A stretch of 64,000 nt of DNA from Bryobacterales bacterium (GTDB taxonomy: Bacteria > Acidobacteriota > Terriglobia > Bryobacterales > UBA6623). The translations under genes were made by a program, and so were the position numbers. The notes beneath the pieces were generated by a model. That model had not been told where the DNA came from. It did no database searches and saw only the letters and a list, made by a program, of their open reading frames with translations. The stretch covers positions 1 to 64,000 of the forward strand of contig JAPPMC010000134.1 in NCBI GenBank assembly GCA_028819235.1, given 5' to 3'. This document shows, piece after piece, positions 12,321 to 18,551 of this stretch (positions are counted from its first letter, which is position 1; the number at the start of each line of letters is the position of its first letter).

Positions 12321-13229
12321 ATGAGGCCAGCTGCGGAAACGCCACTTCGAGACGCATTCGCGCAGGATGCGCGGCCTTTAAGATCGAGCACTAGGGTCTG
12401 GAAGCGCCGCCGTCTTTACAGGTTCAGCAGGTTCGTGACCTGTGCCGTTGTGGCGGCAAGCCTGGGCGGGCTGTTTTTTGAGCCGGCGGGCCCGTGGCAA
12501 TACACGGCAGATATTCTCGTTCGGTCCTACTTGGCGTTCTTGGGCACCGTTATGGCTCACGAGGCCGTGCATGGCTTGATGGGAAGGACACCACGGTCCA
12601 ATCTCTGGTGGGGACGCTTGGCTTTGGTCCCGTGCATGGTGCCATTCACCAACTTCCGGAAGACCCACTTGCTGCACCACCGGCACACAAACGAGGCGGG
12701 ACGCGACCCGGACCACTTCATCACTCCACGCGAAGGTCGCGAATGGGAGATCCCGCTCCGGGCGGTGGCAATGCCGCACCATTGGCTCCTTTGGCTGCGC
12801 AGGCGCCAGACCATAGACGCCGCCCACGTTCGCGAACTGTTACTCAACTACGCGGGCATCGCCCTGATCTATCTTCCGATCCTCGCCGTGGTTGGTCCGA
12901 AAAGACTCGCCTTCGGAATGATCCCCCTGCTCGTGATCGTTTCGCTCCTGCTCTGGTATCCGTTTGCCTTCAAGACGCACGAGGGGTTCTCTACGGGCAA
13001 CGCCAATTCCCGGTCCCACAACTACTACGGCCGACTGATGTATTGGTTCTCGTTCGGATTGTCGATGCACAGGACGCATCACATGCGCCCCTACCTGGGC
13101 TGGATCGAGCTGCTTCAGTTTGTCGAGCCGGCCCCGAGCGTGGCTGGCAGGCTGATTCCGATGCGCGACATCCAGATCGACGAAGCGTTGCCGATGCCCG
13201 ATGCCCAACCACCATCTCACCACGCTTGA
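12321..13229 (+). CDS. Membrane fatty acid desaturase / hydroxylase family protein
   Basis: A 302-residue integral membrane diiron enzyme. Three histidine boxes are visible: HEAVH (residues 80-84), HLLHHRH (116-122) and HRTHH (250-254), plus an extra His in NSRSHNYYG before the third box. Hydrophobic segments lie near residues 40-55, 65-85, 180-195 and 198-215. These features place it with the fatty acid desaturases and carotenoid hydroxylases; which lipid it oxidises cannot be read from sequence. It overlaps the next gene by 29 bases, and the following gene overlaps a third, so it belongs to a three-gene unit with an acyltransferase and a GH3-like ligase. That setting favours an acyl-chain substrate. 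Confidence 0.88.
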   Translation: MRPAAETPLRDAFAQDARPLRSSTRVWKRRRLYRFSRFVTCAVVAASLGGLFFEPAGPWQYTADILVRSYLAFLGTVMAHEAVHGLMGRTPRSNLWWGRLALVPCMVPFTNFRKTHLLHHRHTNEAGRDPDHFITPREGREWEIPLRAVAMPHHWLLWLRRRQTIDAAHVRELLLNYAGIALIYLPILAVVGPKRLAFGMIPLLVIVSLLLWYPFAFKTHEGFSTGNANSRSHNYYGRLMYWFSFGLSMHRTHHMRPYLGWIELLQFVEPAPSVAGRLIPMRDIQIDEALPMPDAQPPSHHA

Positions 13230-14430
13230 CTTAGTCTGCGTGCTGATGGACACGGATGTCCGGCCGCTAGATTTCGCCCTGCTCCTCGAGTTCGACCGCA
13301 AGATCACCCCGGAGAGCCTTGCTCGTGGGGCAATCAGTGCACGCAACCGGTATCCGACGACGGGGTCCAAGGTTGTTGACGGTCGATGGGTTAGGCTTGC
13401 TGCGGAGTCCTGCCGGTCAGCGTTTCGAGCCGTTCACAGTGAGAGGGAAGCAAACCACATTGACTCTTTTCTTCGGGGTCGGTTGAATGTTGCCACGGGG
13501 CCTCCCGTCCGACAGATCTGGATGGGTGATGGCAAGGACGGCTCGGGGTGTCTTGTTACTAGGATTCATCACTGCGCAGCGGACCTGCTGAGTGCCTTGG
13601 GATGGATTCGACACCAGCTGCGCGTGGCCGCAGGCCTGGACGGTCCCTGCGCCGTCCCGATTGAATCGGGACCTCCGGCTCTGGCCCCCGCCCCGCCCGG
13701 AGCCAATCGGAACCCAGACTGGCACCGATGCGCACCGATCTGGACCCGACCCTCGCGAGCATCCGCCGAGAGGCGCTGGACAACGTTTACGTTGGCGGAC
13801 CGAGGGCTCTCGGCCCTCACCTCCGACGGCGACGGATTCACGTACAACGATGTGCTGACAGTCGCTGTCCTGGAGACACTGCACTGGTGGAATCTCGTTC
13901 ACGACGAAGGCGAGCGGAAGGTGGGTGTCTGGTTGCCTGTGAACATCCGTAGGGAACACTTCCTTGGGTTCGGTAACGCGTCAAGCCGGATTCGCGTGCG
14001 CCGCACCTACGCAGACGGGCTCGCCTTGGCAGACAAGTGCCGCGCGGTTCGGTCCCAGATCAATGTGGCGCGGGAGCGTGGCGAGTGGGTCGTTCCGGAG
14101 CAGACGTTCCCGACCCGGGCGCTGTTTCGGTATGGGAGCCGTATCGCGCGACGCTACCTGAACCGGCCATGGGCAGACATGGGCTCAGCGTCGTTCAGCC
14201 ATGTCCAAAGGTGGCCGGGCCAGACCGATCCTGTCTTCGCGGATGTGCGGAAGGTTGCGGTGGTGGGCGCGATGCATCGGCGACATGCCCTGATGCTCGC
14301 CGCCCTCACGTTCCACGGGCAAACGCGAATGACGATCACTTATGATCCGGCGCTGCTCTGGCGACAAGATCTCGCCGCCATTGCATATCGCTACGTGCGC
14401 ACTGTCGATGCGGTGGTGCTCGGGTCCTGA
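13201..14430 (+). CDS. Condensation-superfamily acyltransferase (WS/DGAT-like)
   Basis: A 409-residue protein resembling the wax ester synthase/diacylglycerol acyltransferase and NRPS condensation fold. The catalytic HHxxxD motif is present as HHCAAD at residues 123-128, with Leu in place of the usual following Gly. The N-terminal pattern (LDxxxxxMDT...LLEFD) and the C-terminal DUF1298-like stretch (SFSHVQRWPGQTDPVFADVRKV) fit the superfamily at both ends. Such enzymes move an acyl group from CoA or a carrier protein to an alcohol or amine; the acceptor is unknown here. The start at 13201 keeps the conserved N-terminal segment and overlaps the desaturase; the stop overlaps the next start by one base (TGATG), so the genes are coupled. 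Confidence 0.8.
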   Translation: MPNHHLTTLDLVCVLMDTDVRPLDFALLLEFDRKITPESLARGAISARNRYPTTGSKVVDGRWVRLAAESCRSAFRAVHSEREANHIDSFLRGRLNVATGPPVRQIWMGDGKDGSGCLVTRIHHCAADLLSALGWIRHQLRVAAGLDGPCAVPIESGPPALAPAPPGANRNPDWHRCAPIWTRPSRASAERRWTTFTLADRGLSALTSDGDGFTYNDVLTVAVLETLHWWNLVHDEGERKVGVWLPVNIRREHFLGFGNASSRIRVRRTYADGLALADKCRAVRSQINVARERGEWVVPEQTFPTRALFRYGSRIARRYLNRPWADMGSASFSHVQRWPGQTDPVFADVRKVAVVGAMHRRHALMLAALTFHGQTRMTITYDPALLWRQDLAAIAYRYVRTVDAVVLGS

Positions 14431-16004
14431 TGCGCGTCGCGTTCAACGACGCCCTCCGACGCCTGATTGCTGTCGTCCTGCGGGTCGGAGGTGGCCTTGC
14501 AGAGGCACTGCACCGTCTGAGAGTGCGCCACCACCATCAACATTGGTTAAGGTTGCGACGGCGGCTCTGCATTCGACCGGACACGGAGCTGACAAGTAGC
14601 GTTCCGCAGGTGAACCTCTCCTCGTCGGTCCCAGCCGGAGGATCGATTCGATTGGTCAGCACCTCTGGTACGACCTCAACGGCGAAGGTGGTCGCGTATC
14701 CGCGAGGGCGGACGGCAGTCGTTCGATGGGTATTCGTCGATTCGTTCATGCGGGCATTCAGGGCCTTCGGCATTCGACGTACGAGCATGTACGTCTTTGG
14801 CCCAGTCCGAGGTGACGACTCGTTGACCAGCCTGTTGCTTGACGAGTCTGGCCGACCTCCATACCTCGCTACTCTGCAGGCTCCATACCGCATACATGCC
14901 TGGAACCGCCTGCGACACCTGCACGATTCCTACGGAACGAACGCCGTTCGCCTCTGGGTGCTGGCGCTCTCGAATCCAGGCGTGCTCTACAGCACTAATC
15001 CGTCCACGATGTCGACGTTCTTCGATGAGCTCGAAGCCCACTGGCTTCAGTCTTCGGCACTCGTGCGTGACATCATACGGGGCAACGGCCAGGTCGATCC
15101 GTCCTTGGCTGCCTTCACGCGGAGACTCGCTTCGCGGGGATTCGTGGACCGTTTCCGGGCGATCGCCGGCAGCTCGACCTACCTGTCCATCGATCGCTGG
15201 GCACCGGCGGTGACCGCCTATTCGTGCTGGACGGGTGGATATGTCTCCCCGTTCCTGGACCGCCTCGAACAATACCTGCCGAAGACCCGATTCCTCCGGA
15301 TTCCGATGTACTCGATGTCCACCGAGACGCTCGAGACCATTCCTGACTTTCGGCTCGGGGAGGTGGCGTTCCTGCCGATGGCCCCCGGTGTCTGCTGCGA
15401 GTTCTTGGACTACAGCGCTCCCCGTGAGTCACGTTCGCTGCTGGCCCCACGGCAGCTCTCGGTCGGCGGCGTATACGAGCTCGTAGTCAGTCACAGCCAC
15501 GGCCTCCGACGGTACTGTACCGGCGACCTGTTCAGAGTTCGCGGGTTCGTCGCCAACCTGCCGGACATCCAGTTCCTGCGGCGCCGCGGCCTCACGTATT
15601 CGTTCACCGGCGAGAAGCTGACGGGCACGCAAGCCATGCTGGCGTACGACCTGCTCAGATCAGAGTTTCCGGATAAAGTCGGCGACCTACCACTGACTTG
15701 CTTTCCCTCCCGACGCCCCGCCATGAGGTTGCCGCACTATCGGATTGTCGCGGTCTATTCTGGCCGCGATGATCCCGGCCAGATTCCGGGCCTTGCGGAG
15801 CGATTCGACGGTCTGCTCTGCGAATCGAATTCGGAGTACAGAGCCAAGCGGGCAAGTGGACGGCTGGGTCCAGTACGGCAAGAAAGTGCTTCCTTGCGAG
15901 CCATGCCGACGCACCTCTCCGATCGGCTAACCCCGGGCGTGGATTCGCAATTCAAGCTGCTGCCGCTCTATCCCCGGTTATGGGAAGAGAGGAGCCGGCC
16001 TTGA
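14430..16004 (+). CDS. GH3-family acyl-adenylate-forming amido synthetase
   Basis: A 524-residue protein of the GH3 (auxin-responsive) branch of adenylate-forming enzymes. These activate a carboxylic acid with ATP and join it to an amine, usually an amino acid, without a carrier protein. Key motifs are present: the nucleotide-binding STSGTTSTAK at residues 77-86, YCTGDLFRV at about 362-370, and FLRRRGLTYSFTGEKLT at about 382-398, followed by a C-terminal domain ending in QFKLLPLYPRLWEE. Its start overlaps the acyltransferase stop. Plant GH3 enzymes conjugate hormones; bacterial members are mostly uncharacterised. In this operon a fatty or polyketide-like acid is a reasonable inferred substrate. 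Confidence 0.85.
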   Translation: MRVAFNDALRRLIAVVLRVGGGLAEALHRLRVRHHHQHWLRLRRRLCIRPDTELTSSVPQVNLSSSVPAGGSIRLVSTSGTTSTAKVVAYPRGRTAVVRWVFVDSFMRAFRAFGIRRTSMYVFGPVRGDDSLTSLLLDESGRPPYLATLQAPYRIHAWNRLRHLHDSYGTNAVRLWVLALSNPGVLYSTNPSTMSTFFDELEAHWLQSSALVRDIIRGNGQVDPSLAAFTRRLASRGFVDRFRAIAGSSTYLSIDRWAPAVTAYSCWTGGYVSPFLDRLEQYLPKTRFLRIPMYSMSTETLETIPDFRLGEVAFLPMAPGVCCEFLDYSAPRESRSLLAPRQLSVGGVYELVVSHSHGLRRYCTGDLFRVRGFVANLPDIQFLRRRGLTYSFTGEKLTGTQAMLAYDLLRSEFPDKVGDLPLTCFPSRRPAMRLPHYRIVAVYSGRDDPGQIPGLAERFDGLLCESNSEYRAKRASGRLGPVRQESASLRAMPTHLSDRLTPGVDSQFKLLPLYPRLWEERSRP

Positions 16005-16087
16005 CCCTGACCAGGCTCACCATCGCGGACCGCAGACTGACCTTGTCTCGGCATAACGGCCGGCCATGACGGCTTGGCCCCGCTCTC

Positions 16088-16723
16088 TCATCGGACCAGC
16101 ATGGTCTGAAGCTCCCGGAAGGACCGGAAGTCGCGGCTGAGCAGGAGAACTCTGCAGCCTGCGGCCGACGCTCCGCACCCGTCGGTGTCCGCACGGTCGC
16201 CTATATGCAGCAGTTGCTCCGGCATCAGTTCAAGATCGGCAAGAATGCGGCGGAACGGCTCCGGCCTGGGCTTGAGCCACCCCATTCGCTCCCCGGAGTA
16301 GACGGCGTCGAAGTGTCGTGTCAGTCCAAGACTGGCGAGCTTGTCCGCTGCTTCGAAGTCGGAGAACGCAACTTGCGCCCGGAACCGGGATCTGAGCGCC
16401 TGCAGGGCAGCATCGACACCTGTTCGGGCACCAACGGCCGCCATCGCGGGCAAGAGCCACCTCCGTTCGAGTACTAGGCGCCTCCCAATGCGAGCGTCGT
16501 CCGGCTCAATGAGCCCCTCCTCACGACGAAGCCGCTCCATGCGCCGGCGAAATCTGTGCAGGGACGCCGTCGCCTGCCAGGCCGACCGGCCATCGCCGGA
16601 CAGAGACGCAGCCAATACCGCGAGCCAGTATCGAACGGCAACCCTGCGGGCTGAATAGAGCGTGCCGTCAACGTCCCAACTCAACGCTCGGACAGCACCA
16701 GCTTCGAACGGTCGTGAAGGCAT
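16088..16723 (-). CDS. HAD-family hydrolase
   Basis: A 211-residue haloacid dehalogenase-like phosphatase. Motif I is WDVDGTLYS with Asp17 and Asp19 as nucleophile and acid/base; motif II is the Ser in AFSDFEAADK; motif III is the Lys in GWLKPRPEPF; motif IV is HIGDRADTD. A helical cap lies between motifs I and II. The ATG at 16723 is preferred because the catalytic motif follows closely; an upstream extension to 16828 would run into the divergent gene. On the minus strand a TACAGT -10-like hexamer lies about 20 bases upstream. It is divergent from the methyltransferase and convergent with the GH3 gene. The substrate is unknown. Confidence 0.85.
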   Translation of the reverse strand: MPSRPFEAGAVRALSWDVDGTLYSARRVAVRYWLAVLAASLSGDGRSAWQATASLHRFRRRMERLRREEGLIEPDDARIGRRLVLERRWLLPAMAAVGARTGVDAALQALRSRFRAQVAFSDFEAADKLASLGLTRHFDAVYSGERMGWLKPRPEPFRRILADLELMPEQLLHIGDRADTDGCGASAAGCRVLLLSRDFRSFRELQTMLVR

Positions 16724-16743
16724 TCTGGCGAAGGCCTCGATGC

Positions 16744-16750
16744 TACTGTA
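16744..16750. promoter_or_regulatory. Shared bidirectional -10 element TACTGTA
   Basis: On the plus strand TACTGT (16744-16749) is exactly six bases before the ATG at 16756. On the minus strand the same bases read TACAGTA and lie about 20 bases before the HAD hydrolase ATG. One element could therefore serve both divergent genes. This is a sequence reading; no promoter activity is known. Confidence 0.45.
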
Positions 16751-16755
16751 CCGAC

Positions 16756-17574
16756 ATGCGAGTCGTGGGCCCTCCGTCGCGCCGTTTCGATCCTGCAGGC
16801 GTTCGCAACCCATCGTCGACCGGGGCAATGGACTGGTCCGGATTCAATTCCAGCTTCGATTGGTTGGTGCGCACGAACTGGCGGGACGTGAACGCCCACG
16901 TCTCTTACCCGCTTCCAAGGCGTCTGCTGCGGCTATGGCTGGCCTTCGTCCAACAGCGGCGCAACGCCATCCTCGATTTCGAGGGCAAGCTGCGCACGTT
17001 CTGGCAGCTGAGGCTTCCACCGAACCCGAACATCGTTCAGTTTGGAGCCGAAGCAGGCTGGGAGGCGGCCCTTGTGCAGGCGCTCTATGGCAACCGGGGA
17101 AGAGCATTGCTCATCGACAGCGACCCAATGGCGTACCAACGCTTCCTCACGGCGCCCCAGCATGTCCGCGTTCGCGCTCCCAAGGGAAGTGGGCGGCGGT
17201 GGATTGACGTCTTCCGCGACCCCGCGCGGTTTGAATACTCGCGGGAGGACTTCTTCAGGATGGAACCTTCCGAGACCTTCGATGTGGGCCTGGACTGGGG
17301 CTTGATCGAGCACTTCGACGATCAGGGAAAGCAGTCCTTGATCGCTCTCTTCCGCAGGTTCCTGAAGACGGAGGGGATCCAAGTCTCGTCTTGTCCCAGG
17401 GACCGCATCTCTGTTCGATTGTTCTACGCCGCCTTCTCCGAAGAATTGAACTTTGGGTACCGCGAGCTAATGAAGCTGCACGAGCTCGCGGCACACATCC
17501 GGCGGGCCGGTTGCCACATCACGTCGCAGCACCGGCTGGCCGCCCATAACGTGGTTGCGTACCGTTTCGCATGA
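16756..17574 (+). CDS. Class I SAM-dependent methyltransferase
   Basis: A 272-residue Rossmann-fold protein. The glycine-rich SAM loop is degenerate (IVQFGAEAGWEAA), followed by the acidic residue pair in ALLIDSDPMAY and the motif FDVGLDWGLIEHFDD, which resembles methyltransferase motif II; the C-terminal half is ordinary for the family. The substrate cannot be told. I choose ATG 16756, which has a -10-like TACTGT six bases upstream and would give a leaderless message; ATG 16828 is a possible shorter start that keeps the whole fold. It is divergent from the HAD hydrolase and may belong functionally with the preceding desaturase/acyltransferase/GH3 genes, but that is a guess from position. Confidence 0.78.
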   Translation: MRVVGPPSRRFDPAGVRNPSSTGAMDWSGFNSSFDWLVRTNWRDVNAHVSYPLPRRLLRLWLAFVQQRRNAILDFEGKLRTFWQLRLPPNPNIVQFGAEAGWEAALVQALYGNRGRALLIDSDPMAYQRFLTAPQHVRVRAPKGSGRRWIDVFRDPARFEYSREDFFRMEPSETFDVGLDWGLIEHFDDQGKQSLIALFRRFLKTEGIQVSSCPRDRISVRLFYAAFSEELNFGYRELMKLHELAAHIRRAGCHITSQHRLAAHNVVAYRFA

Positions 17575-17700: not shown

Positions 17701-18551
17701 TCAGCGCGACTCCCGACAGCTGCCGAGGCCGGCGGCGAGGCGGCGGATCCGTGCGACACCGTCGAGCAGCGGGCCCAATCGGTCGAGCCGCAGCGCCGTG
17801 GAACCATCCGACAGCGCGACCGCCGGGTTGTCGTGGACTTCTAGGAACACACCGTCAACGCCGCATCCAGCTCCGGCGCGTGCCAGCGTCTCGATGAACT
17901 CCGGTTCGCCCCCGCTCGAGCCTCCCGCGGATCCCGGAAGCTGTAGGCTGTGGGTCACATCCAGCACGACCCGGTATCGAGCTTCTGCATGCGAGCAACG
18001 CCGCGGAAGTCCACGACCAGATTCCTGTAGCCGAAGCTGGAGCCCCGCTCGGTCAGGAGGATCCTGTCATTCCCCGTGGACGCGACCTTGTCGGCTGCGT
18101 GCCGCATGTCGTCGTGCGCGAGGAACTGGCCCTTCTTGATGTTCACCACGCGGCCCGTCCGGCCCGCAGCAGCCAGCAGGTCCGTCTGTCGGCACAGAAA
18201 GGCCGGTATCTGCAGGATGTCGCAGGTGTCCGCGGCGAAGTCTGCTTGGTCCGGATGGTGGATGTCGGTCAGCACCGGCAGCCCGGTCGCCTTTCGAACC
18301 TCTCCGAGGACCTCTAGGCCACGCCGCAGTCCCGGCCCCCTGTAGGAGGTCACGCTTGTGCGGTTGGCCTTGTCAAAGGATGCCTTGAACGCGGCGGCCA
18401 CTCCTGCCGACTTGGCTGCGACGGCGACCGCATGCCCTATCTTGACCGCATGGTCCCGCGACTCGATCACGCACGGTCCGCAAATCGCAAACGGCCGCTC
18501 CGCCGCGAGGAGCGCTGATGCCCGATCGTCCATCCCAGGTAGCCGGATCAA
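17701..18551 (-). pseudogene. kdsA: 3-deoxy-8-phosphooctulonate synthase, frameshifted
   Basis: KDO-8-P synthase condenses phosphoenolpyruvate with arabinose 5-phosphate for the LPS inner core. The first part (18551 to about 17985) encodes a good KdsA: PFAICGPCVIES, AAFKASFDKANRTS, GLPVLTDIHHPDQ, QIPAFLCRQTDLL, NIKKGQFLAHDDM and SSFGYRNLVVDFR. It then runs into a stop at 17955. The remaining quarter continues in another frame (17967 down to 17701) with VVLDVTHSLQLPG, SSGGEPEFIETLARAG, GVFLEVHDNPAVALSDG and LDRLGPLL. A single-base indel between about 17958 and 17990 explains both. With no other decay visible, a sequencing or assembly error is as likely as a real inactivation. Confidence 0.9.

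Follow-up and report, generated by a model that had tools for sequence, protein, structure and literature searches.

The window, that is, the whole 64,000-nucleotide stretch of a Bryobacterales contig that was analysed, contains a group of five genes between positions 12321 and 17574. The first three, encoding a desaturase-family protein, an HHxxxD acyltransferase and a GH3 enzyme, overlap on the plus strand, while the HAD gene has the opposite orientation, convergent to the GH3 gene and divergent from the methyltransferase gene. The features are the following:

12321..13229, plus strand: membrane diiron protein of the FA_desaturase family, 302 aa (PF00487, three His boxes)
13201..14430, plus strand: HHxxxD acyltransferase of the WS/DGAT-condensation superfamily, 409 aa (motif, Pfam matches of orthologues, hhalign)
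14430..16004, plus strand: predicted GH3-family ATP-dependent acyl-amide ligase, 524 aa (GH3_M, JAR1 profile match, motifs)
16088..16723, minus strand: HAD hydrolase, likely a phosphatase, 211 aa (PF00702, motifs; start set from orthologues)
16724..16755, no strand: divergent intergenic stretch of 32 bp, putative shared control region (DNA alignment of nine loci)
16756..17574, plus strand: putative class I SAM-dependent methyltransferase, 272 aa (weak Pfam matches in orthologues)

The desaturase and acyltransferase genes overlap by 29 bp (13201-13229) and the acyltransferase and GH3 genes by 1 bp, in a TGATG at 14430. With the PF00487, HHCAAD and GH3_M assignments detailed below, these overlaps bear out the preliminary description of three overlapping genes of these kinds. 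Coding constraint is visible in all five genes, the differences from one relative amounting to 0.41-0.57 at third codon positions versus 0.15-0.23 at second positions. The HAD and methyltransferase genes had been described as following from a shared promoter. Their starts were placed from relatives, at 16723 (the HAD frame can be extended to 16828, but the orthologues begin at 16723) and at 16756, hence the gap between them is only 32 bp. A CCTCGGTGCTACTGTACCG block within this gap is largely conserved in the DNA alignment of the nine loci, and a divergent control region common to both genes is a plausible reading. However, the HAD gene is transcribed from the minus strand and diverges from its neighbour instead of following in line, and a sigma-70 consensus scan detected no promoter in the gap; the single match of the scan lies outside the five-gene unit, and shuffled sequences give as many.

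The desaturase-family protein matches PF00487 well above the cut-off (E 1.5e-20, 74.5 bits versus 29.7) and carries the His boxes H80xxxH, H116xxHH and H250xxHH. It shares 70-92% identity with its counterparts within the genus and 50% with the copy of G086, a genome from another family. From these features the product is predicted to be a putative desaturation or hydroxylation enzyme. Its best NCBIfam matches are CrtR (5e-11, 42 bits versus a cut-off of 475) and CrtW (1e-6, 28 bits versus 350). An assignment as a carotenoid enzyme, either CrtR beta-carotene hydroxylase or CrtW, was rejected on these scores, which are far under the equivalog cut-offs.

In the acyltransferase, HHCAAD occupies residues 123-128 and HHC.AD is invariant across orthologues. 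A Pfam search with the single protein of the window returned neither Condensation nor WS_DGAT_cat. Condensation was matched by five of seven orthologues (best 9.5e-5) and WS_DGAT_cat by three of the seven (best 1.5e-3, under the Pfam cut-off). Alignment to a full WS/DGAT protein by hhalign gave a probability of 97% with the catalytic motif aligned, and the sole match in a sequence search of the PDB was the Marinobacter WS/DGAT 6chj (E 0.017). The AlphaFold model matches condensation-fold chains including PapA5, but at a pLDDT of 40 its confidence is too low for it to serve as independent proof of the fold, although it agrees with the sequence evidence. Known WS/DGAT members esterify hydroxyls using acyl-CoA. 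Taken with this general family knowledge of the reaction, the Pfam, hhalign, 6chj and fold matches make it likely that the enzyme is an acyl-CoA-dependent O-acyltransferase.

The GH3 protein of the window exceeds the GH3_M cut-off (1.8e-12, 47.6 bits versus 23.6), and the GH3 profile matches JAR1 at 7e-14. The N- and C-terminal GH3 models remain under cut-off in the window copy, and the N-terminal model is above it in G086. The adenylation motifs TSG[T/S]..K, STE, GLxRYxxxD and QFK are intact in every member, both in the genus and in G086, so that the adenylation residues expected in the preliminary description are retained throughout, with no case of loss seen. A maximum-likelihood tree of 25 GH3 proteins joins the genus family and the G086 copy in one fully supported group. 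Its branch measures 2.47 changes per column and is distinct from every other acidobacterial GH3 recovered. Because this branch is long, its placement relative to the remaining GH3s is unsure, while membership of the group is not in doubt.

The HAD protein matches PF00702 (2.1e-14, 54.8 bits versus a cut-off of 26.4), and its alignment displays DVDGT, containing the invariant DxD nucleophile, together with SDFE, KP and GDRxxTD. For the methyltransferase, sub-threshold matches to Methyltransf_25 were found in eight of eight orthologues (best 8e-4) and a match to Methyltransf_23 in one (4e-4). A homologue in genome G068 exceeds the Pfam methyltransferase cut-offs; there is no GH3 gene near it. 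The AlphaFold model of the methyltransferase was too poor (pLDDT 37) to be used as support.

Within the genus, which consists of uncultured acidobacteria, the cassette is present in nine of 11 genomes. Full or split matches recovered the GH3 gene in eight of them, and in G006, the ninth, a fragment of it lies where a contig ends; the methyltransferase gene is found in the same nine genomes and the desaturase gene in eight, the exception being the contig break in G006. The two negative genomes are near-complete (98%, one of them a single contig) and lack the GH3, methyltransferase and desaturase genes altogether. Wherever a contig spans all five genes, their order and orientation are identical. 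The flanks, in contrast, fall into three contexts. The window and G002 have purL/purF and a gene of the KDO8P/DAHP-synthase family, the G005 group has an oxidase and a LysR-type/decarboxylase set (both named by eye from sequence), and G004 has a further, different neighbourhood. No cassette follows purF in the stretch read of G007, G008, G009, G005 and G004. The linkage of the five genes despite changed surroundings is most simply explained by one selected function, and together they are a real, well-conserved and movable unit that holds together more than chance would allow.

Next to the cassette of the window, the DAHP/KDO8P-synthase-family gene (17707-18551, minus strand) is interrupted by a change of frame near 17977, while its relative in L015 is a single intact frame of 283 aa. 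The interruption may be a sequencing error or a recent mutation.

Beyond the genus, only one near relative was found among 396 sampled acidobacterial genomes. Co-occurrence of the genes, proposed earlier as a check across the phylum, thus holds inside one genus, where they are not scattered, but extends elsewhere to one distant genome, G086, and the phylogenetic range of the cassette is limited. In G086, the desaturase (50% identity), GH3 (39%) and HAD (31%) genes are adjacent on one strand, the HAD gene directly after the GH3 gene. Immediately after the HAD gene comes a gene for a PF04116 fatty acid hydroxylase (L042:3238-3978, plus strand), which is possibly a functional stand-in within the pathway. 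Relatives of the HHxxxD acyltransferase and of the methyltransferase were not detected in G086, on a contig of 6.3 kb and with few candidates scored per genome. The core had first been given as desaturase, acyltransferase and GH3. This no longer stands, since G086 retains desaturase, GH3 and HAD with no detectable HHxxxD or methyltransferase gene, and judging from gene content the older core appears to be the desaturase, GH3 and HAD set. It follows that an acyloxyacyl, methylated product cannot be general. The family and the order of G086 are represented by one genome each, hence no further relatives were available there. As a broader and rather doubtful proposal, the distinct GH3 clade with its diiron enzyme and HAD core could make an amide-linked lipid, or a lipid signal, of a class not described before, the cassette spreading among acidobacteria and recruiting acyl- and methyltransferases lineage by lineage.

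For the five-gene form, the favoured reading, held tentatively and with a little less than even confidence, is that the genes form a transferable cassette. It would direct the GH3-dependent synthesis of an N-acylated amino lipid and work like OlsH/OlsI/OlsG, the ornithine-lipid enzymes compared below. This reading is favoured because the cassette genes move and are lost together, the GH3 motifs are intact, the acyltransferase resembles WS/DGAT and the G086 core is paired with PF04116. We infer all substrates, the order of the steps and the lipid nature of the product. The diiron membrane enzyme would introduce a double bond or a hydroxyl into a fatty acyl chain, and the GH3 enzyme would convert the free acid into an acyl-adenylate and couple this with an amine (an amino acid being the likeliest) with no carrier protein. 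With acyl-CoA as donor, the WS/DGAT-like enzyme could then esterify a hydroxyl and so attach a second acyl tail. A phosphate might be removed from the amine headgroup or its precursor by the HAD enzyme; this role is a guess and the least certain step, and the target may be a phosphorylated amine (a phospho-amino acid, for example) or an unrelated intermediate. The methyltransferase would cap the headgroup, yielding a modified N-acyl amino lipid. The acyl-amide lipid product put forward in the preliminary description is plausible, and the conserved gene unit and the intact adenylation motifs of GH3 are borne out.

The main rivals of the amino-lipid reading are a diffusible acyl amide and a substrate other than a fatty acid. 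N-acyl amino acids are known bacterial products, and N-acyl tyrosines (stieleriacines) are named in a published abstract; the cassette might produce a soluble N-acyl-amine for signalling or defence, a small desaturated acyl amide rather than a structural membrane lipid. The patchy presence and shifting genomic position of the cassette would fit such a dispensable, specialised trait; on the other hand, the conserved unit includes no transporter, regulator or resistance gene, and the second acyl transfer suggests a two-tailed lipid, which leaves the soluble molecule unlikely, if still worth considering. Less probable again is an acid that is carotenoid-like, hopanoid or aromatic, produced by a CrtR/CrtW-like hydroxylase or ketolase and conjugated by the GH3 enzyme. 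CrtR and CrtW are indeed the best NCBIfam matches of the desaturase, and the substrates of plant GH3 enzymes are small acids, hormones and benzoates, according to the names of their PDB entries. However, the CrtR and CrtW scores are a small fraction of their cut-offs and the unit has no isoprenoid gene. The likeness of the acyltransferase to WS/DGAT and the extra gene of the fatty acid hydroxylase family in G086 also speak against such an acid.

It could also be argued that the locus comprises two neighbouring modules, a desaturase-acyltransferase-GH3 operon and a HAD/methyltransferase pair adjacent to it by happenstance, as the latter two genes lie on opposite strands with a common start region of their own. 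All five genes nevertheless remain linked when the flanks change, and the HAD homologue of G086 directly follows the GH3 gene on the same strand, which makes a chance juxtaposition improbable. If the amino-lipid reading is correct, the cassette would add a further amino-lipid route in the phylum, where OlsB/OlsF were not found in the genomes tested, and as a compact, self-contained set with fixed partners it would provide a defined target for the products of divergent GH3 clades.

Databases contain many bacterial GH3 enzymes, and no characterised one other than OlsH was found in the literature searched. In several acidobacterial loci (L099, L100, L056, L059, L060 and L063), GH3 recurs alongside GNAT-like proteins and two radical SAM proteins of the B12-binding kind, and some of these loci add an FA_desaturase and a Rieske protein; the members were Pfam-checked in L100 and the remainder named by sequence likeness. 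These clusters have GH3, and in some cases a nearby FA_desaturase, in common with the cassette but belong to another GH3 clade with other partners. Within this cluster in L100, one 474-aa frame (13699-15120, minus strand) has an N-terminal PAP2 phosphatase match and a C-terminal squalene/phytoene synthase match. A search of plasmids recovered only two GH3 relatives, both distant and within unrelated clusters: Citrobacter plasmid L054 carries GH3, radical SAM genes, an N-acetyltransferase and a PAP2 phosphatase, while in L053 (Streptomyces plasmid NZ_CP027299.1) GH3 is part of a type I polyketide cluster whose last gene encodes a threonine--tRNA ligase. The literature search on GH3 with desaturase or radical SAM clusters returned no matching pathway.

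The plant acyl acid amido synthetases JAR1/GH3.11 and GH3.12 belong to the same family by sequence (JAR1 E 7e-14) and share the P-loop-like TSGT...K, STE, RYxxxD and QFK motifs; the cassette enzyme differs in its very divergent N-terminal acid-binding half and in its position in a bacterial operon alongside lipid enzymes. Similarly, the cassette acyltransferase shares HHxxxD, the N-terminal LSTLD, NDV and the P-V-x-R-R region with WS/DGAT (6chj), but it is shorter, forms a separate subfamily and scores under the Pfam cut-off.

The closest described system is the planctomycete OlsH/OlsI/OlsG ornithine-lipid pathway (PMC12493201). In Singulisphaera acidiphila, the GH3-like OlsH (526 aa) uses ATP to couple a free fatty acid to ornithine, yielding N-acyl ornithine; the second acyl chain is attached by the alpha/beta-hydrolase OlsI, and methylation of the headgroup is the task of OlsG (PMC12493201). 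Activity of OlsH was obtained in extracts and not in cells (PMC12493201). The statement that no pathway with this kind of gene set had been described fails, because this operon of GH3, O-acyltransferase and methyltransferase genes was published in 2025 (PMC12493201); it has no desaturase or HAD gene. The same report places some acidobacterial GH3s in a clade of their own and suggests other amines for other clades. The cassette resembles this system, by description and size, in its GH3 (524 versus 526 aa) and in the acyltransferase and methyltransferase genes beside it. In addition, both occur in genomes without OlsB/OlsF: no PF13444 N-acyltransferase was detected in the nine genomes tested, the control being positive in two known genomes, hence GH3 would stand in for the missing enzyme, as it does in Singulisphaera. 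None of the five cassette genes encodes an alpha/beta-hydrolase, and for this reason the cassette is not classed as a member of the OlsH/OlsI type, though it may work like one. It differs in its HHxxxD acyltransferase of the condensation type, where OlsI is an alpha/beta-hydrolase, and in the addition of a diiron enzyme and a HAD phosphatase in a divergent layout.
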